IMG/VR virus record: IMGVR_UViG_3300048908_000312
Coordinates: 1-39,577 of that record
From: a virus
Strand: one strand, 5' to 3'
DNA length: 39,577 nt
The notes under the pieces were generated by a model. It saw nothing but the letters and a program-made list of their open reading frames with translations, searched no databases and was not told the DNA's origin. How positions within the stretch are numbered: position 1 is the first letter of the stretch; each line of letters opens with the position of its first letter. The position numbers and the translations under genes were made by a program. Positions 392-22,089 of the stretch are shown here, piece after piece.

Positions 392-648
392 TGGACGCGG
401 GGCCGGAACTTCAATTCGAGCCAGTTGGCTGGCCGCAGCCGCTCTTTGGCTGGATCCTTCCATCCTTTGAGGATCGTATCGTCAACGATGTCCGCGCCGG
501 ATTTTCTTTCGAAGCGATCTGCGCGCGGCAGACATGCGACGCCGAAGTTGCGGCGGCCGCGATCGCGCGGGCGCGCGCCCATGACTTTCTGACCGAGGAC
601 GAAGCAACCTTCCGTGGCGTCTGCAGGGAGGCCGCCGCATGCGCCTGA
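391..648 (+). CDS. Small hypothetical protein upstream of primase
   Basis: 85 residues, starting in a TGATG overlap with the preceding gene and running 10 bp into the primase gene. The N-terminal third is rich in Pro, Trp and Phe (GWPQPLFGW); the rest looks like two or three helices (FSFEAICARQ, VAAAAIARARAHDFLTEDEA), reminiscent of a small helical DNA-binding or adaptor fold, but without a motif that can be named. Tight coupling on both sides supports it being real. Function unknown. Confidence 0.6.
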   Translation: MDAGPELQFEPVGWPQPLFGWILPSFEDRIVNDVRAGFSFEAICARQTCDAEVAAAAIARARAHDFLTEDEATFRGVCREAAACA

Positions 649-1841
649 GCGACGCCCAGATCGAGGATCTGAACGCCCGCGCCGATCTCGGCGCGCTGGC
701 CGCGCAATTTGGCGCGACGTTGCGGAAATCCGGCCGCAACCTGATCGGCTCCTGTCCGCTGTGCGGCGGCGGCAAGCGCGCGACGCGGTTCGAGATCAAG
801 GACAATGGCGCGCTGTGGCTGTGCGCGGTCTGCGCCGAGGGCGGCGACGCCCTGGCGCTGGTGCAGAAGGCGCGCGGCTGCGATTTTCGCGCGGCGGTCG
901 AATTCCTGGGCGGAGCGGCGTCGCTCTCGGCCGAGGACGAGGCGCGTCTGGCGCGCAAACGCGCCGCCGAGCAGGACAAGCGCGAAAAGGCCGCCGCTTT
1001 CTTCCGCACGCAGGAAATCGCGCGGGCGCAAAAGCTGTGGGACCATGCCGAGCTATTTGGCCGCGAGGGCGTCGAAAGTTATTTGCGCGGGCGGGGCTGC
1101 CTGCTGCCCGGGACGGCTGATATTCGCGGCGCGCGGGCCGTGCCTTATTTTCATGGTGAGACGGTTGATGAGATGGGGCGGCGCTCGCCACGCGTGCTGA
1201 TGCGCGGACCGGCCATGGTGTCCGCCGTGCGCGACAATGACGGCGCCTTCTGCGCCGTCCATGTGACCTATCTCGACGCCTCGCTGACGCGGAAAGCCAA
1301 GGTGAGCGACCCCGACAGCGGCGAGGCGCTGCCGGCGAAAAAGGTGCGCGGCGCCAAGGCTGGCGGCCATATCGTGCTTCGCCTGCCGGACGATCCCAAA
1401 AGGCTGTTCCTGGGCGAAGGGATCGAGACGGTGCTTTCGGTCGCCACGGCCTTGAAGCGCGAGGGGCGAATGCGCGGCTCGGACGCGTTCTGGTCCGCGG
1501 TCGATCTCGGCAATCTTGGCGGCAAGGCTGTTTCGAGCGTGGCGCATCCGACGCTGAAGACGCCTGGCGGGAAGGCGCAGCGGGTTCCCGGAGCGGAGCC
1601 GGATTTCTCGGCGCCGGGGATCGCTCTTCCCCCCAGCGTGACCGAGCTGGTCCTGCTCGGAGACGGCGATTCCGACGCCTTCACCACCGGGCTGGCGATG
1701 CAGCGGGCGGCGGCGCGCTATGCCCGGCCCGGGCTCTCGATCCGGATCGTGATGGCCCCGGCTGGCAAAGATTTCAACGATCTCCTGGTGAGCGCCAAGT
1801 TGCGGCCAGAAGGCGCCCAAAGCAAGGAGCACGCGGCATGA
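639..1841 (+). CDS. DNA primase with zinc finger and Toprim domain
   Basis: 400 residues. The N-terminus carries a CHC2-like zinc finger with four cysteines, C39-x2-C42 (CPLC) and C62-x2-C65 (CAVC), followed by EGGDALAL, the usual end of primase zinc modules. The C-terminal half has the three Toprim motifs: GEGIET (catalytic Glu260), GDGDSD (Asp342/344/346) and KDFNDLL (377-383). This is the architecture of phage primases that make RNA primers for replication. A GGGAGG Shine-Dalgarno lies 6-7 bases before the ATG at 639. The end overlaps the next gene by 4 bp. The companion helicase is a separate gene at 3139, so the usual phage primase-helicase fusion is split here. Family-level identity is solid; substrate preference is unknown. 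Confidence 0.9.
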   Translation: MRLSDAQIEDLNARADLGALAAQFGATLRKSGRNLIGSCPLCGGGKRATRFEIKDNGALWLCAVCAEGGDALALVQKARGCDFRAAVEFLGGAASLSAEDEARLARKRAAEQDKREKAAAFFRTQEIARAQKLWDHAELFGREGVESYLRGRGCLLPGTADIRGARAVPYFHGETVDEMGRRSPRVLMRGPAMVSAVRDNDGAFCAVHVTYLDASLTRKAKVSDPDSGEALPAKKVRGAKAGGHIVLRLPDDPKRLFLGEGIETVLSVATALKREGRMRGSDAFWSAVDLGNLGGKAVSSVAHPTLKTPGGKAQRVPGAEPDFSAPGIALPPSVTELVLLGDGDSDAFTTGLAMQRAAARYARPGLSIRIVMAPAGKDFNDLLVSAKLRPEGAQSKEHAA

Positions 1842-2248: not shown

Positions 2249-2505
2249 GCGCGGATGATTTTTTCACACACGCTGACCAGGCCGTGCGCGGCGCCGTGGC
2301 CGATCTATGCGCCAAGGCCGGGGCTGAGGGAACGGAGCCGGAAGATGTCTGCGCGACGCTGCTGTCGATCCTCGTCGCCTGCACCTTCGACGTCGCTGAG
2401 GCGACGCCCCTGCCGTCCGACCGGGCGCTGCAGCTGGTGTGCGACATCGCGACGCGCCATGCCGCGATCTGCGCGGCCGAGGAAGGCGCGGTCGGGAATG
2501 CGTGA
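2245..2505 (+). CDS. Small hypothetical protein, replication operon
   Basis: 86 residues, start chosen at the ATG of the ATGA overlap (2245) rather than an upstream GTG at 2227. The protein is acidic and Ala-rich, with a DDFFTHADQAV start and a helical VCATLLSILVACTFDVAEA segment that is not long or hydrophobic enough to be a confident membrane anchor. No domain is recognised. It sits between the HTH protein and the methyltransferase and overlaps the latter by 8 bp. Confidence 0.6.
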   Translation: MSADDFFTHADQAVRGAVADLCAKAGAEGTEPEDVCATLLSILVACTFDVAEATPLPSDRALQLVCDIATRHAAICAAEEGAVGNA

Positions 2506-3142
2506 GATTGGCGCACGCCAAAGCGTGCGCGGCAAGAGCGAGAAAAGACCCATGAAACAGGGCGCCTCCCGCCATGCCCTGGCGGACCGGAAAGACGATC
2601 TTTACGAGACGCCCGCCTGCGCGGTTCATGCATTGTTGCGCGTCGAGCCGAGCCTGCGGTCGCCGGTCCATGTCTGGGAGCCTTGCGCGGGACGAGGCGC
2701 CATAGCGCGCGAGCTGGTTTCTGCTGGCCATTCGGTCGTTCAGATGGACCTCGTACCGCATGAAGGCGCCGATCCCGGAATTCTGACTCCGGTCGATTTC
2801 CTGATGGAGCGGCGCGCGCCGCAAGACGTCGAACTGATCGTGACCAATCCGCCCTACAAGCTGGCGAACGAGTTCATCCGCCATGGCCTGACGCTGGCGC
2901 CGCGCGTGATCGTGCTGCTGCGTCTGATGGCGCTGGAAGGGGCCGGGCGGTCCGACCTGATCGACACGCATCTCGCCCGCGTCTGGGCGGGGATCGAGCG
3001 GCTGCCGACCATGCACCGCGAGGGCTGGGAGGGGAAACGGATGTCGAACAGCGGCGCGCCCTTCGCCTGGTTCGTGTTCGAGGCCGCATCTCGCGGCGAA
3101 AGGGCGATCGAATTGCGCCGGATGAGCTGGAGGGGCGCGTGA
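2498..3142 (+). CDS. DNA adenine methyltransferase-like protein
   Basis: 214 residues from the ATG at 2498; an ATG at 2552 would give 196 and is also possible. Two SAM-methyltransferase hallmarks are visible: motif I WEPCAGRGAIA (residues 60-70, AdoMet binding) and motif IV TNPPY (116-120), the NPPY form typical of N6-adenine or N4-cytosine DNA methylases. No target-recognition domain or restriction partner is adjacent, so this looks like a stand-alone phage methylase that marks phage DNA against host restriction or affects replication timing. Those roles are inference from the family. It ends in a GTGA overlap with the helicase. Confidence 0.82.
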   Translation: MREIGARQSVRGKSEKRPMKQGASRHALADRKDDLYETPACAVHALLRVEPSLRSPVHVWEPCAGRGAIARELVSAGHSVVQMDLVPHEGADPGILTPVDFLMERRAPQDVELIVTNPPYKLANEFIRHGLTLAPRVIVLLRLMALEGAGRSDLIDTHLARVWAGIERLPTMHREGWEGKRMSNSGAPFAWFVFEAASRGERAIELRRMSWRGA

Positions 3143-4677
3143 CTGAGCCGTCCAAACTGATCGCCGATATGGTCGAAGGCGCGGCTGTCGTCTCCGACGC
3201 GCTATGCGCAGAGAACATGGCTGGAAATTTTGCGCCGAAGTCTCCCGCTCGCCCGGCTGAGGATGGGGCGGCTCTTACCCCGCGCCATTTCGGGTTCGAT
3301 ATCGATAGCCTCAATCGGGAGTTCGCGCTGGTCCTGATGGGATCCAAGGCGGTTGTCTTTCTTGAACAGCCTGACGCCATGGTGGAGGACCAGCAGCGCA
3401 TCCTGACGATCGAGGCCTTTAATGCGTGGTTCGCCAATCGCTTCACCGAAATCTGCGGCTCCGACGGCAAGATCAAGGCTGTCACCTGGGCCAAGGCGTG
3501 GTTGTCGTCGAAGCTGCGTCGCTCCTATCGCGGGGTCGAATTCTTCCCGGACCCAAACAATGCGCCGGGCACCAAGGATTATCTGAACCTTTGGAGCGGG
3601 CTGGTCTGCCTGCCGCTGCCCAGGAGCGACCCGCGCGCCTATGGCACCTTCGCCGACCATCTTCTGAACAACGTCTGTCGCGGCGATCCTGGGCTCTACA
3701 AATGGGTGTTCGGCTTTTTCGCTCACATGATCCAGCGGCCGCGCGAGCGGCTCGGCGTGGCGCTGGTGATGCGCGGCAAGATGGGCTCCGGCAAGACCAA
3801 GGTCGGCGAGGTGTTCGGGTCACTGGCGCCCCGCCATTATTTCCTTGTCGACGACCCCCGCTACGTCACCGGGCAATTCAACGCCCATATGGCGACCTGC
3901 CTGCTACTGCAGGCTGACGAAGCTGTATGGGCAGGCGACAAGGCGGCGGAAGGGCGGTTGAAGGGCCTTGTGACTTCGCCGATCCAGCAGATCGAGGCCA
4001 AGGGCGTCGACCCGATCCGGCTGAAAAATTACGTCCGGCTGATCATGACCTCCAATGAGGAATGGGTGGTGCCCGCCGGCAAGGACGAGCGGCGCTTCTG
4101 CGTGCTCGATATCGACCCGCGCTGCGCCCAGAACCATGAATATTTCGCTGAAATGGACCTCGAGCTGGCGAACGGCGGGAGAGAGGCGCTTTTGCGCGAT
4201 TTGCTGGATTTCGACCTTTCGAGCGTCAATCTGCGCCAGATCCCGCGCACCGAGGCGCTGCTGGAACAGAAAATCCGCTCGCTCGATTCCGTCGAGAGCT
4301 GGTGGTTCGAACGCCTGATGGCCGGGACGACGACGCGCGGCGGCGGCCAGTGGCGGCAGGAGATGCCGTGCGAGAGCCTGTTCGACGATTATATCGCGGC
4401 ATCCGAACGCATCGGCGTCAAGCGCAAGCAGGAGCAAACCGTTTTCGGGATGAAGCTGGCCAAGTTGGTGGCGGGGCTGGAGAAAAAGCGGCCCTGGGTC
4501 GACATCGAAGACAAGACCGGCATTCCCGTGCGCCGCCGCGCCTGGTGCTATCTGCTGCCCTCGCTCAGCCACTGCCGCGAGGCCTTCGCCGAAGCGCTCT
4601 GCCAGGACGTGACATGGCCGGACGACGATGGCGCGGGCGAAGACGAGGGTCGCGAGAAACCGGACTGGGAGGGGTAA
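3139..4677 (+). CDS. Replicative helicase, P-loop ATPase of DUF5906/SF3-like type
   Basis: 512 residues from a GTG start inside the GTGA overlap. The ATPase core shows Walker A GKMGSGKT (213-220), Walker B QADEAVW (258-264), a TSNEEW sensor (304-309) and an arginine-finger-like KDERRF (315-320). This order matches the helicase domain of DUF5906 and virulence-associated-E-type phage proteins, hexameric helicases partnered with a primase. The N-terminal 190 residues and the C-terminal 130 (winged-helix-like, basic, KRKQEQTVFGMKLAKL) are family-typical but not individually named. It lies immediately upstream of the iteron block at 4697-4987, as expected for an origin-unwinding helicase. Confidence 0.85.
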   Translation: MTEPSKLIADMVEGAAVVSDALCAENMAGNFAPKSPARPAEDGAALTPRHFGFDIDSLNREFALVLMGSKAVVFLEQPDAMVEDQQRILTIEAFNAWFANRFTEICGSDGKIKAVTWAKAWLSSKLRRSYRGVEFFPDPNNAPGTKDYLNLWSGLVCLPLPRSDPRAYGTFADHLLNNVCRGDPGLYKWVFGFFAHMIQRPRERLGVALVMRGKMGSGKTKVGEVFGSLAPRHYFLVDDPRYVTGQFNAHMATCLLLQADEAVWAGDKAAEGRLKGLVTSPIQQIEAKGVDPIRLKNYVRLIMTSNEEWVVPAGKDERRFCVLDIDPRCAQNHEYFAEMDLELANGGREALLRDLLDFDLSSVNLRQIPRTEALLEQKIRSLDSVESWWFERLMAGTTTRGGGQWRQEMPCESLFDDYIAASERIGVKRKQEQTVFGMKLAKLVAGLEKKRPWVDIEDKTGIPVRRRAWCYLLPSLSHCREAFAEALCQDVTWPDDDGAGEDEGREKPDWEG

Positions 4678-4696
4678 AACGCTTTTTGTGGGGTTT

Positions 4697-4987
4697 GGTC
4701 CAACCTTGTCACGGTTTGGTCCAACCTCAAAAACAAGGTTGGACCAAAATAACTCTTTTATTTCAATGCTTGGTCCAACCTGTCCAACCTGTCCAACCTT
4801 TTTGCCTCATGTGTGCGCGCGCGCAGGCGGGCGCGAAACCCGGCGAAGAAAAATTCCAGAAAGTTGCTTTATAGGTTGGACAGGTTGGACAGGTTGGACC
4901 AGATATAAAAAAAGCAAACGAAAACAAGTATTTATTATGGTCCAACCTTTGGTGTTTTGAAAAGTCATAGGTTGGACAGGTTGGACC
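4697..4987 (+). repeat. Iteron block: twelve 9-bp GGTTGGAC(A/C) units in both orientations
   Basis: Non-coding 324-bp gap (4678-5001), visibly AT-richer than its flanks. Units GGTTGGACA or GGTTGGACC, or the reverse complements, occur at 4697, 4718 (reverse), 4737 (forward), 4772/4781/4790 (three reverse in tandem), 4874/4883/4892 (three forward in tandem), 4939 (reverse) and 4970/4979 (two forward): six in each orientation. Every tandem run ends with the GGTTGGACC variant on the outer side. The centre is a 29-bp perfect inverted repeat (4771-4799 with 4873-4901). Repeats next to a replicative helicase suggest an origin with initiator binding sites; an operator or RNA regulatory array is the alternative. 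Confidence 0.85.
4715..4748 (+). repeat. 13-bp perfect inverted repeat with 8-base loop
   Basis: Positions 4715-4727 pair perfectly with 4736-4748 around the loop CAAAAACA. The stem is built from one reverse and one forward iteron unit plus flanking TTT/AAA. It starts 38 bp after the helicase stop and could end helicase transcription or act as a structured origin element. The downstream tract (AATAACTCTTTTATTT) is U-rich but interrupted, so terminator function is uncertain. Confidence 0.6.
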
Positions 4988-5001
4988 AAAAGGGGCGAGC
5001 G

Positions 5002-5367
5002 ATGGGCGAAATGGAAAAGGCGCTTTTACAGGTCGTGAATGGGCATGCGTTTCTGACGTGGCGCGGATTTGAGACGGGCGCGGTCGGCGCGGAATTTCAG
5101 GATCTGCGGAAGGCTTGGCCTAATCACATCGGAGAGTTCCGCCGCGCACTGGACTGGCTGCAATGCGTTCCGCCGCGCCTGACGGTCAACCGCGACTTCG
5201 ACAGCTATCGGCTCAAGCATGCCGCCGAGCATTGGGCGGGCGGCTATGTCAGCAACGGCGCGCTGATCGCCGCCGCGCTGCATCTCGGGTTTGTCGTCGA
5301 GCCGATCGCCGGGTCGCTCAACGCCTACATCTCCGTGTCCGGCGAAACCAAATGGCCGAAATCCTGA
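5002..5367 (+). CDS. Hypothetical protein downstream of the iteron block
   Basis: 121 residues. The ATG at 5002 is preceded by AGGGGCGA, a suitable ribosome site; an in-frame TTG at 4957 would read through iteron DNA and is rejected. The protein looks like a compact helical domain (EKALLQVVNGHAFLTW, LRKAWPNHIGEFRRALDWL, HAAEHWAGGYVSNGALIAAALHLGF). The last part resembles a small helix-turn-helix, so a DNA-binding role is possible, but no family is recognised. As the first gene after the repeat array it is a reasonable candidate for one regulated by, or binding to, that array. Confidence 0.6.
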   Translation: MGEMEKALLQVVNGHAFLTWRGFETGAVGAEFQDLRKAWPNHIGEFRRALDWLQCVPPRLTVNRDFDSYRLKHAAEHWAGGYVSNGALIAAALHLGFVVEPIAGSLNAYISVSGETKWPKS

Positions 5368-5376
5368 GGGCTGACC

Positions 5377-6336
5377 ATGAGCGGCGAAAAACTGAAGCGG
5401 ATGGCGGTGATTGAGCTGGCCCGGAAATGGGGCGGCGCGATGAAGGCGGCGGTCGTGGCCACGCCGAAGCAGCGGATCGACATAGAGGCGCTGCTCGCCT
5501 GGGCCTATCTGCGTGAGTTGCCCAAAGTGCCGCGCATTCCCGCCGCGCCGGAGGAATGGCGTCGCGCCTGGGACAAGGTGAGCCAGATGGGCGAGGAATT
5601 GTCGCTGGCCGGTCTCGACGACAATCGCTTCGGCGTCGTGCCGGATTTATTCGCGCAGGATCTGCCGCACAATGACGCGCTGCTCGTCCATGACGCCGTC
5701 TGCGCGCTCGACGCCTTCTGCTTGAACTTGCCCGAGGATTGGTCGCCGCTGGACGATCTGGGCGATCTGGGCGGCCATGCCGGCGAGGTGGCGGCCAAGG
5801 CGCTGGAGCGGCTCACGTCGATCGATGACAAGGGCCAACGCCATCTGCGCCGCACGCCGCGCCGCCTGCTGATGCGCCACGCCATTCTCGGCAGCGCGCC
5901 GGATTGGGAGATCGAGCCCCCGGATGTGCGCTTCGTGCAGGAGTTTGGCGCTGACAAATGGTTTGTGCGCGAGGTGATCGTGACCGATGGCGCGTTCGGG
6001 CCGTCGCGGTTCGAAGTGGAGGTCGACGGCTTCGACCATGTGCGGCGCATGCCCAAGCCCTTCGCCTATCGCAAGACTGAACTCGTGCCCGATCCGACCG
6101 ACGGCTGCGTCGCGCGGGCCGAATATGAGGTCTGGCGCTATGCGCTTGACGCTCTGGCGGCCGATCTGGACGGCCGGCTTGAGCGTTTCGACGTCGTGCC
6201 AAGCGTTCGTCCGATGCGCCCATGGGAGGAGCCTGCGCCGCAGATGGGGCGCGTGCTGCCAGATCTGACGCGGCGCGCGGCGCATGATTCGGGAAGGGTG
6301 CGCGGTCGGCGAAAAAAGATCACAAGCGCTGCTTGA
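5377..6336 (+). CDS. Hypothetical phage protein (319 aa)
   Basis: 319 residues, with GAGGG upstream of the ATG and a 9-bp gap from the previous gene. It begins with a basic helical region (KLKRMAVIELARKWGG) and has an acidic middle (SPLDDLGDLGG). The C-terminal half has regular strand-like segments (FVREVIVTDGAFGPSRFEVEVDGFDHVRRM) and a basic tail GRRKKITSAA. Nothing matches a family I can name. It is the last gene before the strong terminator at 6386-6415, so it closes the early/replication transcription unit. Confidence 0.6.
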   Translation: MSGEKLKRMAVIELARKWGGAMKAAVVATPKQRIDIEALLAWAYLRELPKVPRIPAAPEEWRRAWDKVSQMGEELSLAGLDDNRFGVVPDLFAQDLPHNDALLVHDAVCALDAFCLNLPEDWSPLDDLGDLGGHAGEVAAKALERLTSIDDKGQRHLRRTPRRLLMRHAILGSAPDWEIEPPDVRFVQEFGADKWFVREVIVTDGAFGPSRFEVEVDGFDHVRRMPKPFAYRKTELVPDPTDGCVARAEYEVWRYALDALAADLDGRLERFDVVPSVRPMRPWEEPAPQMGRVLPDLTRRAAHDSGRVRGRRKKITSAA

Positions 6337-17970: not shown

Positions 17971-20900
17971 ATGGCTGGCGGCGCTTTCACGCAAACCGTC
18001 GTTCTCGACGGCGGCGACAAGGTCGCCAAGCAGCTTGCCGAGATCGGGAAATCAGGCGAACAGGCGTTCAAGCAGATCGGCGACGCGACCAAATCGGCGT
18101 CGCAAAATCTCAATTCCGCGCAATCGGTTTTCGGCCAGATAGCGTCTGCCTTTCAAGGCATGGTCCAGCAAGTCGCGGATGCGGGGCAGGCCTTTGGCCG
18201 CGCCTTCGATCCGCTGATTTCCGCAGGCTCGGCGGCGCTTGGCGCTGCGACCAGGACCGGGGCGGGGTTCGGAGCGGTTGCGGGCGCGGCGGCCGGCATT
18301 TCCGGGGCGATCGGCAAGATCGGGCAGGAGGCGGCCAATTCGGTCGCCAAGCTGAACGACGCGGCGACCGCCGCCGGCCTGACGATGGAGAAATATTCCG
18401 CGCTCCGCGCTGCGTTCGAAGGCGTTGGCGTTGGCGCCAATGTCCTCGATAAAATGGTGCAGGCCTCCGAAAGAGCCGCTCGCGGCGCCGAATTGAAGGG
18501 CGGCCCGTCGCATTTCCGCCGCGCGCCAGAGAGCGCCGATCAGGGCGATGATGCGGAGAGCGCCGACAAGGCGGCGGCGTCGGTTGGAAAGCTGACAGAA
18601 AGCATTCTCGGGGCCGAACGCGCGGCGTCTGATCTTCCCCGCGTTTTCAAGGCCGTCAATGGCGCCTTTGAGGAAGTCCACGCCGGCGACAGCAAATCCC
18701 AAGGCCTTGGCGGCTATGCCCAGGCGGCGGGTGAGCTCGGCGTCGCTTTGCGCGATATGTATGGCAAAGCGCGCCCCGGCATCGAGATCGCGCGCGATGT
18801 CGTGCTGTCGTTGGGCAAAATGGCGGATGGCGCGCGCCGCGCGGACATCGCCGCCCGGGCCTTTGGCGAAGGGCTGGCGCGGGAAGTGCTGGCCGTCGCG
18901 GACAATCGGGAGGCCATCAACGCCCTGGCTGCGGCGCACGAGAGGTCCGCCGCCACTATGTCGGAGGCGCAGAAGAAACAGGCCGACGACGCCCGCGCGA
19001 CCGGCGCCATTCTCGCCTCGGTCAAGGCGTCGTGGCTCGAATATTATCGATCACTGGCGACGCCGGTCACGATTGATCAGAACAACGCCATCATCGTCTT
19101 TTTCGAGCGCAACAAACAGGCGTTGAAGGATTTCGGCGACAATGTCGTCGGCCCGGCGATTCGTTGGCTCGGGCAGTTCCAGAATTCTTTCGGCGCGGTT
19201 TCGATCGCCGCCGCCGCCCTCGGCTCGTCGCTTCGCCTGTTATCGCCGGTCGCCGCCACGGCCTTTGGCGCGGCGGGCATCGCGGCGATTGTTTTCGGCG
19301 ACAAGATCAAAGACGGCGCGCTCGCCGCCATGACCGAATTGACGCGCATCGTCAAGGCGAACGATCTTTCGACCTTCGCGGGCTGGAAAAACGCCGCGGG
19401 GGCGGTTTGGGAAGACATTAAACAAATCGCCTTCGACGCTTGGGCGGAAATTCGCCAGCGCGTTGCGGCGGTCGATTGGGCGGCGGCCTGGGCCGATTTC
19501 AAGGCGGCGGCGTTCAACGCCTGGGACAATCTGCGCCAGCAAATTGCGGCGATTGATTGGGCCGGCCTATGGGACCGGTTTACCTCGATCGCATCCGACG
19601 CGATGGGCGCAGCCGTCAAGATCGCGGGCGACGCCTATGGCGCGATCAAGAGCGCGGCGGTCGCGGCGTTCCCCGGCCTGGTCGAAACCTTTGTGCGGTT
19701 CGAGCAATTCGCGAAAGACACAATGACCGCGATCAAGGGATTTTCGAAAGAAACCTGGATTGCGATCGGCGTCGGGCTAGCGGCGGCCGCGATTGTCTGG
19801 CGCGGGAGCTTTCTTGGCCTCGCGCTTGGCGCCGCGCCGTTTTGGGAAGAAATCCTTGTCGGCGCGGCGCGTATTTCTCCGGCCTTTCGCGCCATTGTCG
19901 CGCCCATTCGCGCGTCTATGGCAGGGCTGATCGATGGCATGTTGCAGCTTTGGCGCAATTTTTGGACGGTCCTGTCCAACCCCGCCGACGTTGGCGGCGC
20001 CGCCAATCTTGAACGCGCGGCTGGCTTCGCCGGATTTCGCGCGGCAGCGATTCGGGTTTGGGGAGAAGTCCAGCGCATATTCGTGGCTGGCGTGCGCGGC
20101 ATTCGCTCGACCATCGAAGGAGCGTTCCCGGAGGCGAAAGAATTATTCAGCGGCTTCGCGGCGTCCGCGTCACGCCTTTATGCTGCGCTTCGTATCCTCG
20201 GAGTCGAACTTTCGGCGTTTCTCGCCATGATCACGCTCGGCAAGGTTTCTCTCGGGCCGTGGGAGGCGCTATTTCTGGCTTTCGGGTTGCACATCGCCGG
20301 CATCTTGCCGCTGTTCACGTCCCTGATCACGTTCATCGGGTTGGCGATCACCGGCATCGGCCATCTAGCCGGCGCGATCGTCGCCATCCCCAGCGCGATT
20401 CAGACGATGGGCGGCGTTATCGCCAGTTTCTGGGCGGTCGTGACAAGCCCCGCTGTGCTGGCGATCGCCGCGATCGTCGCTCTCGCCGTCGCGGTCGGCA
20501 ATCTCTACAACCATTGGAACGAACTGACTGCGGCTGGCCGCGCGTTTTATTCATCGCTCGCAGTCGGCGCGGCGGGGGTTCTCGCTTACGTCGCGGCGAT
20601 CAATATTATCCCCGCCGTTGCGACTGCCGCCGGCGCAGCGATCACTGTATTCACGGCGATCGTGCGCGGCCTTTCCGCAGCATTCCTGTTCATGTCAGCT
20701 ACACCTTGGGGCGCAATTATTGCTGCGGCCATCATCCTTGTCGCCGTCGCGCTCTACGCACTCTACACCCATTGGGACCAGGTCAAATTAGGCGCCCAGG
20801 CGGCGTGGAGCGCGATCACCAACGGGGCGAATGCCGCCTGGTCCTCGATCAAGAGCGCGGCGGAAGGTTTTTTCGGCTGGCTCGAAGCCAAATGGAACGC

Positions 20901-22089
20901 GCTGAAGGACCTCGGCGGCAGCCTTTGGGACAAGTTCAAGACCGGCGCCAATAGCGCATGGGAAGGCGTCAAAGCCGCCTTTACCGACAGCATCACGTGG
21001 ATCGAAACCAAATGGGACGCGTTGATCGCCAAAATCAAAGGCGGCCTTGCGGCGGTCGGCTTACTTCCGTCGGGGGGCGCCTCGTCCGATTCCGGCAGTT
21101 CCAACAGTGAGACCGCCAGCTCCAGCTCCGGCGCCCCGGGCTTCGCCGGCGGCGGCGTCATCAATGGACCTGGCACGGGGACATCGGACAGCATCCTTGC
21201 CAGGCTTTCGAATGGCGAATTTATTGTCACCGCTAAAGCCGTGAGGGCTTATGGCGCGCGTCTGTTCCACGCGTTCAACAACCTATCCTTTCCCGGTTTC
21301 GCAGACGGCGGCGATGTTTCGGACTCAGCACAAGTCGATCTCGGCGATCTTGCTGATAGCTTCGGAGCATCATCGGGACAGATTGACCTTGGCGCGCTCA
21401 CCGACAGACTCGGAGCATCGTCGGGACAAGTCGATCTCGCCGATCTTGCTGACAAGATCGGAACATCGTCGGGACAGGTCGATCTCGCGCAGATTGCCAA
21501 CAAGCGCAGAAAATCGTCGGGGCAAGTCGATCTCGCGGCGCTCGCCGACAAACTCGGAATATCGTCTGCGATAGTGGATCTCTTTGGAGGAGATTCCGAC
21601 TTCAAGGCTACGGGCTTCGGCGTTAGCGGCTTCAAAGACGGCGGCTTGATCGGAGCGATTAAATCGATCGGCAGCGCCTGGCGAGGGGCGTCGAAATTTT
21701 TGAGCGGCGGCCTGCTGTCCGGCCCTGGAACCGGAACGTCGGACAGCATCCTCGCGCGGTTGAGCAACGGCGAATTCGTCATGAACGCCAAGGCCGTTGG
21801 CGCGTTCGGCGCGGATTTCTTCCACTCGTTGAACAACCTGAAAATGCCAGGCTTCGCCATGGGCGGCGCAATCGGAACGCCGGCGCTGGCCTCGCTCCCG
21901 GCCTTTACGGGCGGCGGCGTCGCGCGCCAGCCTGCCCACGCTGGCATGATCCCCTTCACGCTCGATCAGGGCGGCCGTTCTTATGAACTGATGGCGCCTC
22001 ATGAAACAGTGCGGGAATTGCGGCGCCATTCGACGGCTTCGCGCATGACTTCGACCACCAAACGCGCGCCGAGCTGGGATAGGGGCTGA
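17971..22089 (+). CDS. Tape measure protein with internal and C-terminal repeats
   Basis: 1372 residues, the longest gene. The N-terminal 65 residues are coiled-coil-like (VAKQLAEIGKSGEQAFKQIG), followed by Ala-rich helices, several hydrophobic stretches (~800-950) and Trp-rich repeats: a 27-residue duplication at ~487-540 (AFDAWAEIRQR / AFNAWDNLRQQ) and a second pair at ~952-1025 (GANAAWSSIKSA / GANSAWEGVKAA). The C-terminus has two copies of GPGTGTSDSILARLSNGEF with GFAGGG/GFKDGG and NNLxxPGFAxGG flanks, separated by five 16-residue repeats. At ~1.5 Å per residue a tail of about 200 nm is expected, as in siphophages. It scaffolds tube polymerisation and probably forms a membrane channel during DNA entry. 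Confidence 0.92.
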   Translation: MAGGAFTQTVVLDGGDKVAKQLAEIGKSGEQAFKQIGDATKSASQNLNSAQSVFGQIASAFQGMVQQVADAGQAFGRAFDPLISAGSAALGAATRTGAGFGAVAGAAAGISGAIGKIGQEAANSVAKLNDAATAAGLTMEKYSALRAAFEGVGVGANVLDKMVQASERAARGAELKGGPSHFRRAPESADQGDDAESADKAAASVGKLTESILGAERAASDLPRVFKAVNGAFEEVHAGDSKSQGLGGYAQAAGELGVALRDMYGKARPGIEIARDVVLSLGKMADGARRADIAARAFGEGLAREVLAVADNREAINALAAAHERSAATMSEAQKKQADDARATGAILASVKASWLEYYRSLATPVTIDQNNAIIVFFERNKQALKDFGDNVVGPAIRWLGQFQNSFGAVSIAAAALGSSLRLLSPVAATAFGAAGIAAIVFGDKIKDGALAAMTELTRIVKANDLSTFAGWKNAAGAVWEDIKQIAFDAWAEIRQRVAAVDWAAAWADFKAAAFNAWDNLRQQIAAIDWAGLWDRFTSIASDAMGAAVKIAGDAYGAIKSAAVAAFPGLVETFVRFEQFAKDTMTAIKGFSKETWIAIGVGLAAAAIVWRGSFLGLALGAAPFWEEILVGAARISPAFRAIVAPIRASMAGLIDGMLQLWRNFWTVLSNPADVGGAANLERAAGFAGFRAAAIRVWGEVQRIFVAGVRGIRSTIEGAFPEAKELFSGFAASASRLYAALRILGVELSAFLAMITLGKVSLGPWEALFLAFGLHIAGILPLFTSLITFIGLAITGIGHLAGAIVAIPSAIQTMGGVIASFWAVVTSPAVLAIAAIVALAVAVGNLYNHWNELTAAGRAFYSSLAVGAAGVLAYVAAINIIPAVATAAGAAITVFTAIVRGLSAAFLFMSATPWGAIIAAAIILVAVALYALYTHWDQVKLGAQAAWSAITNGANAAWSSIKSAAEGFFGWLEAKWNALKDLGGSLWDKFKTGANSAWEGVKAAFTDSITWIETKWDALIAKIKGGLAAVGLLPSGGASSDSGSSNSETASSSSGAPGFAGGGVINGPGTGTSDSILARLSNGEFIVTAKAVRAYGARLFHAFNNLSFPGFADGGDVSDSAQVDLGDLADSFGASSGQIDLGALTDRLGASSGQVDLADLADKIGTSSGQVDLAQIANKRRKSSGQVDLAALADKLGISSAIVDLFGGDSDFKATGFGVSGFKDGGLIGAIKSIGSAWRGASKFLSGGLLSGPGTGTSDSILARLSNGEFVMNAKAVGAFGADFFHSLNNLKMPGFAMGGAIGTPALASLPAFTGGGVARQPAHAGMIPFTLDQGGRSYELMAPHETVRELRRHSTASRMTSTTKRAPSWDRG
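19429..19590 (+). repeat. Two-copy 81-bp duplication in the tape measure gene
   Basis: Units 19429-19509 and 19510-19590 encode 27-residue copies beginning AFDAWAEIRQRVAAVDW and AFNAWDNLRQQIAAIDW. Identity is high at protein level but diverged at codon level, so the duplication is old or under selection. Tail-length change by unit gain or loss is a plausible consequence. Confidence 0.65.
21331..21570 (+). repeat. Five 48-bp tandem repeats in the tape measure gene
   Basis: Units start at 21331, 21379, 21427, 21475 and 21523; each encodes 16 residues of the form QVDLADLADKIGTSSG (residues 1121-1200), and a broken sixth (IVDLFGG) follows at 21571. Copies differ at several positions but keep CAAGTCGATCTCG-like starts and GCATCGTCGGGA-like ends. 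The array lies between the two GPGTGTSDS modules, outside the helical length-determining region. Confidence 0.85.

Follow-up and report, generated by a model that had tools for sequence, protein, structure and literature searches.

A mirrored array of twelve iterons 3′ of a DUF5906 helicase gene as a probable PICI/SaPI-type replication origin of temperate phages

An array of twelve short iterons was found directly 3′ of a helicase gene in a viral DNA stretch of 39,577 nucleotides (IMG/VR record IMGVR_UViG_3300048908_000312), referred to below as the window. With a probability of about 0.85, we consider this array to be a replication origin of the PICI/SaPI type, at which the DUF5906 helicase encoded upstream would read the twelve iterons and two helicase hexamers would load across a central core. 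That the array is an origin, whatever its reader, is very probable. Origins of this kind have already been described, until now for satellites (Fillol-Salom et al., 2018; PMC6092414). The original prediction of a new phage origin or initiator-binding array was therefore supported as regards a helicase-linked origin array, but not as regards its kind, which is known. New are the breadth of its occurrence in full phages, a near-constant 12-site geometry combined with switching words, candidate recognition residues in the helicase and a polar alternating tract in the core.

An exact word search showed twelve copies of GGTTGGAC(A/C) at 4697–4987, six on each strand. Those of the left half start at 4697 (−), 4718 (−), 4737 (+), 4772 (−), 4781 (−) and 4790 (−), and those of the right half at 4874 (+), 4883 (+), 4892 (+), 4939 (−), 4970 (+) and 4979 (+). 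They lie in a non-coding gap of 324 bp between the helicase stop codon (4677) and an ATG at 5002, the first iteron being located 19 nt past the stop. The array was divided into the following features:

4697–4726 (4697–4705 and 4718–4726), minus strand: distal iteron pair of the left half; exact matches, order kept in relatives
4737–4745, plus strand: middle inverted iteron of the left half; exact match, an opposite-strand single copy being found 33–40 bp outside the triple in most relatives
4746–4771, no strand: left AT-rich spacer (81% AT), separating the middle iteron from the triple; composition
4772–4798, minus strand: left proximal triple of iterons with a period of 9; exact matches
4799–4873, no strand: central core; composition, polarity also found in relatives
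4808–4825, no strand: alternating purine-pyrimidine tract CATGTGTGCGCGCGCGCA, Z-DNA-prone; run-length comparison
4874–4900, plus strand: proximal iteron triple of the right half; exact matches, inverted repeat with the left triple
4901–4938, no strand: right AT-rich spacer (82% AT), exceeding the left spacer by about one helical turn; composition
4939–4947, minus strand: middle inverted iteron of the right half; exact match
4970–4987, plus strand: distal iteron pair of the right half; exact matches

Only one further exact GGTTGGAC copy was found in the window, at 19973 (−) within a 1372-aa ORF (17971–22089). In 300 simulations with a first-order Markov model of the window, the expectation for a whole window was 0.8 copies, and no 300-bp stretch contained more than two. 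The number of 9-bp iterons noted for the gap and the specificity of their clustering are confirmed. Because an A precedes every copy, the unit is better written AGGTTGGAC, with a period of 9 bp. The C described earlier as a variant at the outward end of each run was indeed seen there, but it is the base that follows the final AGGTTGGAC copy of a run, inner copies continuing into the A of the next unit, and not a separate variant. The order of the copies is −− + −−− (75-bp core) +++ − ++, i.e., 2-1-3 mirrored as 3-1-2, and the left and right triples form a perfect inverted repeat of 29 bp. The symmetry initially noted thus holds for the order, but not for the spacing, as the distance from the single copy to the triple is 35 bp in the left half and 47 bp in the right half.

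For the downstream ORF, a start at the ATG at 5002, located behind GGGGCGAG, is likelier than the alternative TTG start at 4957, which would overlap the last two copies. An Rfam search of 4000–6000 gave no match and no terminator was found in a terminator scan. A weak sigma-70-like promoter match (4963–4934, minus strand) is directed leftward across the array's right half.

The gene neighbourhood of the array in the window is as follows:

639–1841, plus strand: DnaG-like primase (zinc ribbon and Toprim; profile matches), probable partner of the helicase
1838–2248, same strand as the helicase: small HTH protein
2255–3142, same strand as the helicase: match to phrog_799 (‘DNA methyltransferase’), between the HTH protein and the helicase
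3139–4677, plus strand: DUF5906 helicase of predicted hexameric type, the proposed initiator (Pfam PF19263, AlphaFold model, Foldseek)
5377–6336, plus strand: phrog_9306 protein, a frequent, not universal neighbour of the arrays

The array is followed by the small ORF (ATG at 5002), the phrog_9306 gene and, 2.5 kb downstream, a gene for the terminase large subunit. Since the window contains its own terminase and, in the 1372-aa ORF, a gene of tape-measure size, it was classified as phage and not as PICI (satellite). In Rhodoblastus sp. 17X3 (locus L028), a helicase with 98% identity is accompanied by 11 of the 12 copies; a phrog_799 relative is also present at this locus. Primase relatives were likewise found near the array in L028, L004, L044 and L046.

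Like the PICI/SaPI-type origins, the array is located directly 3′ of a helicase gene and consists of two sets of short iterons flanking a centre. PICI origins were described with an AT-rich centre, whereas the core in the window is AT-rich in one half only. Autonomous replication from rep and ori is known for EcCICFT073, SaPIs and EfCIV583 (PMC6092414), and pri and ori of EcCICFT073 were shown to sustain a plasmid in E. coli (Fillol-Salom et al., 2018; PMC6092414). In the CFT073 record, this origin was found to contain 11 GGTAGA copies just 3′ of a gene for a DNA primase family protein (D5_N, DUF5906), in the order −−(47)+(21)−−−, centre, ++(21)−(47)++, i.e., 2-1-3 and 2-1-2; our motif caller counted a doubtful twelfth copy. 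The EcCICFT073 origin thus resembles the array in its position 3′ of a DUF5906 replication protein gene, in its two sets flanking a centre and in a nearly identical order. It differs in belonging to a satellite, in its word (GGTAGAnA, 11 clear copies), in its spacings (9/47/21/11/9 compared to about 9/18/36/9/9 in phage arrays) and in a 32-bp step across the centre that contains no alternating tract.

For both SaPI Rep (Ubeda 2007, cited in PMC7581432) and Cch2, a C-terminal domain is reported to recognize iterons located just 3′ of the respective gene, and SaPI Rep apparently binds as two hexamers (PMC7581432). The SaPI Rep-ori system and SaPI5 PriRep1 share with the organization proposed here a self-loading helicase whose C-terminal domain reads iterons 3′ of the gene; the primase is fused in PriRep1 and separate in the window, and SaPIs are satellites of Gram-positive bacteria. 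For SCCmec Cch2, hexamers as well as dodecamers were seen and the C-terminal domain binds direct repeats downstream of the operon, but the putative origin contains only three 5-nt iterons and no mirrored dodecamer (PMC7581432). Marinobacter phage PS3 contains twelve iterons of the word GGGGTGACC in the same 2-1-3:3-1-2 order with 36-bp spacings, but there the array follows a VapE-like and not a DUF5906 helicase; the record stretch examined contains no origin annotation. Inverted short repeats (GGTAAC; GGTAGTCA) are also found after a VapE-like helicase in Streptococcus thermophilus phage SW6 and Streptococcus satellite Javan315, though in irregular order, with an AT-rich centre and without the 3-1-2 geometry.

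Three other origin types were rejected: a P4 alpha/P4-family primase origin (the helicase scores 16.6 bits against a TIGR01613 cut-off of 108.7), a lambda O-type origin, in which the iterons lie inside the initiator gene (the array is intergenic), and an iteron-plasmid origin of the RepA/TrfA type, whose direct repeats are about 20 bp long and share one orientation (the array has 9-bp units on both strands).

Matches to the 26-bp triple were found in 19 stretches from IMG/VR and 35 from genomes. True arrays repeated the order found in the window, the single inverted copy being separated from the triple by 35–36 bp or, with an additional helical turn, by 47 bp, and a DUF5906 or VapE-like helicase scored above the family cut-off in 13 of 17 viral records. 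Many genome matches were one-strand tandem repeats lacking an inverted partner, in Bacteroidales MAG16 and others. Likewise, a control word, GGTGTTACA, had an inverted partner in only two of 21 contigs (L236 and L253), the rest resembling one-strand tandem repeats; a 9-bp triple alone thus proves nothing. As a separate observation, one-strand tandem 9-bp repeats of GGTTGGACA are abundant in one Bacteroidales MAG16, an odd genome-wide expansion unrelated to the array (loci include L030, L033, L035, L039, L041, L042 and L043).

Eighty viral loci were compared on the basis of the helicase, having been collected by a search with the helicase alignment. A mirrored tandem array was detected just 3′ of the helicase gene in 75 of the 80 loci (motif caller, within 900 bp), compared to 0/80 shuffled sequences, 3/76 stretches located 1.5 kb further downstream and 1/79 stretches inside the gene, so that the expected conservation of repeat position in relatives was found. 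A strict detector of the triple/inverted-triple core was positive for 40/80 loci and 0/160 shuffled sequences. Full 12-site layouts were counted automatically in 45–51 of 79 loci, a conservative number, since a locus is not counted if it has additional weak sites or if a single site was missed. Typically, the copies are laid out as −(9)−(17–20)+(35–38)−(9)−(9)− core +(9)+(9)+(35–38)−(17–30)+(9)+. Distances of the middle copies cluster at 33–40, with fewer at 47–52, and those of the distal copies at 54–56, 63–66 and 73–75, in steps near the helical repeat to which the 9-bp period of the pairs also contributes. Differences in spacing between loci amount to roughly one helical turn (36 or 47; 18 or 28).

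The words showed far less constancy, with about 50 different consensus 9-bp words in the 80 loci. Loci L002 and L003, with helicases of 57–58% identity, contain no GGTTGGAC but twelve GCTTGGACC-like and GGTGGACCA-like copies in the order of the window. Similar arrays with more variable distal copies were found beside VapE-like helicases, and in some phages one word is common to the DUF5906 and VapE helicase families. Because of the divergence of the words, blastn of the array against phage records gave only chance matches. No array was seen in the lytic relatives of the motor (Epa43, RHph_TM26, RHph_X2_30, FP1, YuA and phiVC8). This comparison supports the occurrence of one kind of origin, with about 50 words, across a large family of temperate phages, and would make replication origins predictable from sequence in phages with DUF5906 or VapE helicases.

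The core contains 47% AT compared to 36% in the window, and is GC-rich on the helicase side (31% AT) and AT-rich on the far side (70% AT). Thus, the array is symmetric and the core is polar. The tract CATGTGTGCGCGCGCGCA was the longest alternating run among the 75-bp stretches sampled in the window. In 35 of 44 cores, the longest alternating run fell in the top 5% of stretches of the same length from the same locus (about 2 expected); this count includes the window and L063, which have identical sequences, and related loci that are not independent. The tract consists mostly of (CG)n, at times with CA/TG steps, and its start lies on the helicase side at a median of 10% of the core length; AT content by quarters is 0.33, 0.37, 0.41 and 0.58 from the helicase side to the far side. 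A search limited to open papers found no description of an alternating tract at phage or PICI origins, and a role for it is one that we infer; the tract raises a new, testable question about origin melting. The spacers between middle copy and triple were AT-richer than their own locus, on each side, in 61 of 63 relatives. These spacers often hold TTGATTT-like words, and in L081 and L086 the left and right spacers are nearly reverse complements of each other; conservation may therefore extend beyond the iterons.

An AlphaFold model of the helicase built from 23 related sequences (pLDDT 83, pTM 0.75) replaced a poor one built from nine sequences (pLDDT 60). It predicts an N-terminal domain (~45–165), an AAA+ motor (~165–395) and a C-terminal winged helix (411–487) with a recognition helix at 433–443 and a wing at 448–472, the names being assigned by reading the secondary structure of the model. 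Foldseek matched the model to the C-terminal region of NrS-1 (6k9c, E 1.5e-17), to ASFV PrimPol and to the SaPI5 primase-helicase PriRep1 (7ola, 7om0 and 7pds, about 1e-8 to 1e-9); NrS-1 was the only one of these matched in a profile search with the helicase. NrS-1 is the closest solved fold (6k9c, 6k9e and 6lrb) and its C-terminal region forms a hexameric ring, but it is a single polypeptide that includes a polymerase, and only two 8-nt recognition sequences in its genome, but no iteron array, were reported (PMC7102993). The predicted fold fits a hexameric SF3/AAA+ self-loading initiator with a C-terminal DNA-binding domain.

A word recognized by the helicase tail would be expected to vary in step with that tail. 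Among 56 loci with distinct motors, word distance was correlated with C-terminal-domain distance after removal of motor distance (partial Mantel r 0.35, p 0.0005), but not with motor distance after removal of the tail (r 0.008, p 0.43). In a per-residue scan, T434, F415, P452 and K449 ranked on top and G437 sixth, all within the winged helix. T434 accompanied GGT words (31/31 loci, compared to 4/25 loci with other words; Fisher 9e-12), P452 accompanied GGACC words (13/16 compared to 1/40; 4e-9) and K451 accompanied GGGGC words (9/9 compared to 7/47; 1.5e-6); the residues were picked after viewing the alignment, so these p-values are optimistic. Word switches on the motor tree were nearly as frequent as with shuffled labels. 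Nearest-neighbour contrasts, which are greedy tip pairs and not a full phylogenetic model, agreed in 21/25 (T434-GGT), 13/16 (P452-GGACC) and 7/9 (K451-GGGGC) cases, with none reversed. As the end of the gene encoding the winged helix adjoins the array, co-transfer could inflate the covariation. Co-transfer would, however, place the extreme C-terminus on top, while the top residues are located in the recognition helix and the wing, which speaks against co-transfer alone. The reader of the iterons is thus most probably the DUF5906 helicase itself, through its predicted C-terminal winged helix. These loci provide a natural set of co-evolved reader/site pairs for deriving and testing a DNA-recognition code.

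The original prediction had also named the 1838 HTH protein and the 5002 product as possible binders. Neither has detectable relatives beside other GGTTGGAC arrays, and both were rejected as readers. It is unlikely that the array is an origin read by another phage or host protein (phrog_9306, a winged helix like that of phrog_15967, or a host factor) that recruits the helicase in the manner of lambda O, although GGTTGGAC was found beside DUF5906 helicases, VapE-like helicases and, in L013, a phrog_15967 protein. The word switches track helicase winged-helix residues, phrog_9306 is missing from many array loci and was rejected as reader on that ground, and SaPI Rep and Cch2, with a comparable gene position and, for SaPI5, a related fold, read their own iterons (PMC7581432). 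In L013 (2726–3833), the GGTTGGAC array lies 3′ of the phrog_15967 gene, again with an alternating CG tract on the gene side. The phrog_15967 protein contains a winged-helix-like segment and shows a weak lambda-O-like match, whereas a search of the 16.6-kb fragment gave neither a DUF5906 nor a VapE match; this protein is possibly a second kind of reader for GGTTGGAC.

Clustered operator sites are common in phages, the array sits between genes of the same strand and the weak sigma-70-like match lies on the minus strand within it. An operator bound by a phage repressor or early regulator for transcription control, with the origin located elsewhere, is nevertheless very unlikely, as twelve mirrored sites are kept 3′ of the helicase whatever gene follows, the words covary with the helicase C-terminus and the arrays have no conserved phage regulator next to them. 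A site for packaging or recombination (pac/cos, att or resolution) is extremely improbable in spite of the terminase gene downstream, since relatives consistently have the helicase and not the terminase as neighbour of the array, and EcCICFT073, reported to have separate cos sites and no TerS homologue, contains the same array at its tested origin (PMC6092414).

With the array taken as a helicase-read origin, initiation would proceed as follows. The C-terminal winged helix of the helicase would dock on the iterons, about one per iteron, as suggested by the covariation and the relatives. The six sites on each side (three tandem, one inverted, two tandem) would gather one hexamer each, and the two hexamers would face each other across the core; this stoichiometry is suggested by the 6 + 6 count, the relatives and the fold family. 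The hexamers may then melt AT-rich DNA, either in the right part of the core, in the 81–82% AT spacers of each half, or in both, before loading themselves onto single-stranded DNA and moving away bidirectionally, after which the DnaG-like primase encoded at 639 would prime synthesis. A GC-skew check had been suggested for a replication start near 4800; the skew of the window changes sign near 6.5 kb and in an unexpected direction, a result that gave the prediction no support but weighs little because the phage is mosaic. More speculatively, and at odds clearly below even, the twelve sites may be a stoichiometric template that phases the two hexamers, the CG tract a B-Z switch that gives polarity, and the tail code (434, 449, 451 and 452) a means of switching origin identity that separates phages of the lineage from each other's replicons and satellites. 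The array may offer a simple system for the assembly of two hexamers at an origin by self-loading helicases (fold relatives of NrS-1 and SaPI5).

Two further observations were made in phage records. In Paenibacillus phage Bloomfield (L233: 2718–3006), about ten ACTGCAACA/TGTTGCAGT copies were found in non-mirrored order around the end of the VapE-like helicase gene, perhaps representing a different origin architecture. Besides, DUF5906 helicase/primase proteins were found annotated as ‘integrase’ in many records (ON014755, MN988465, KY000218, JF712866 and others), by which lifestyle prediction could be misled.
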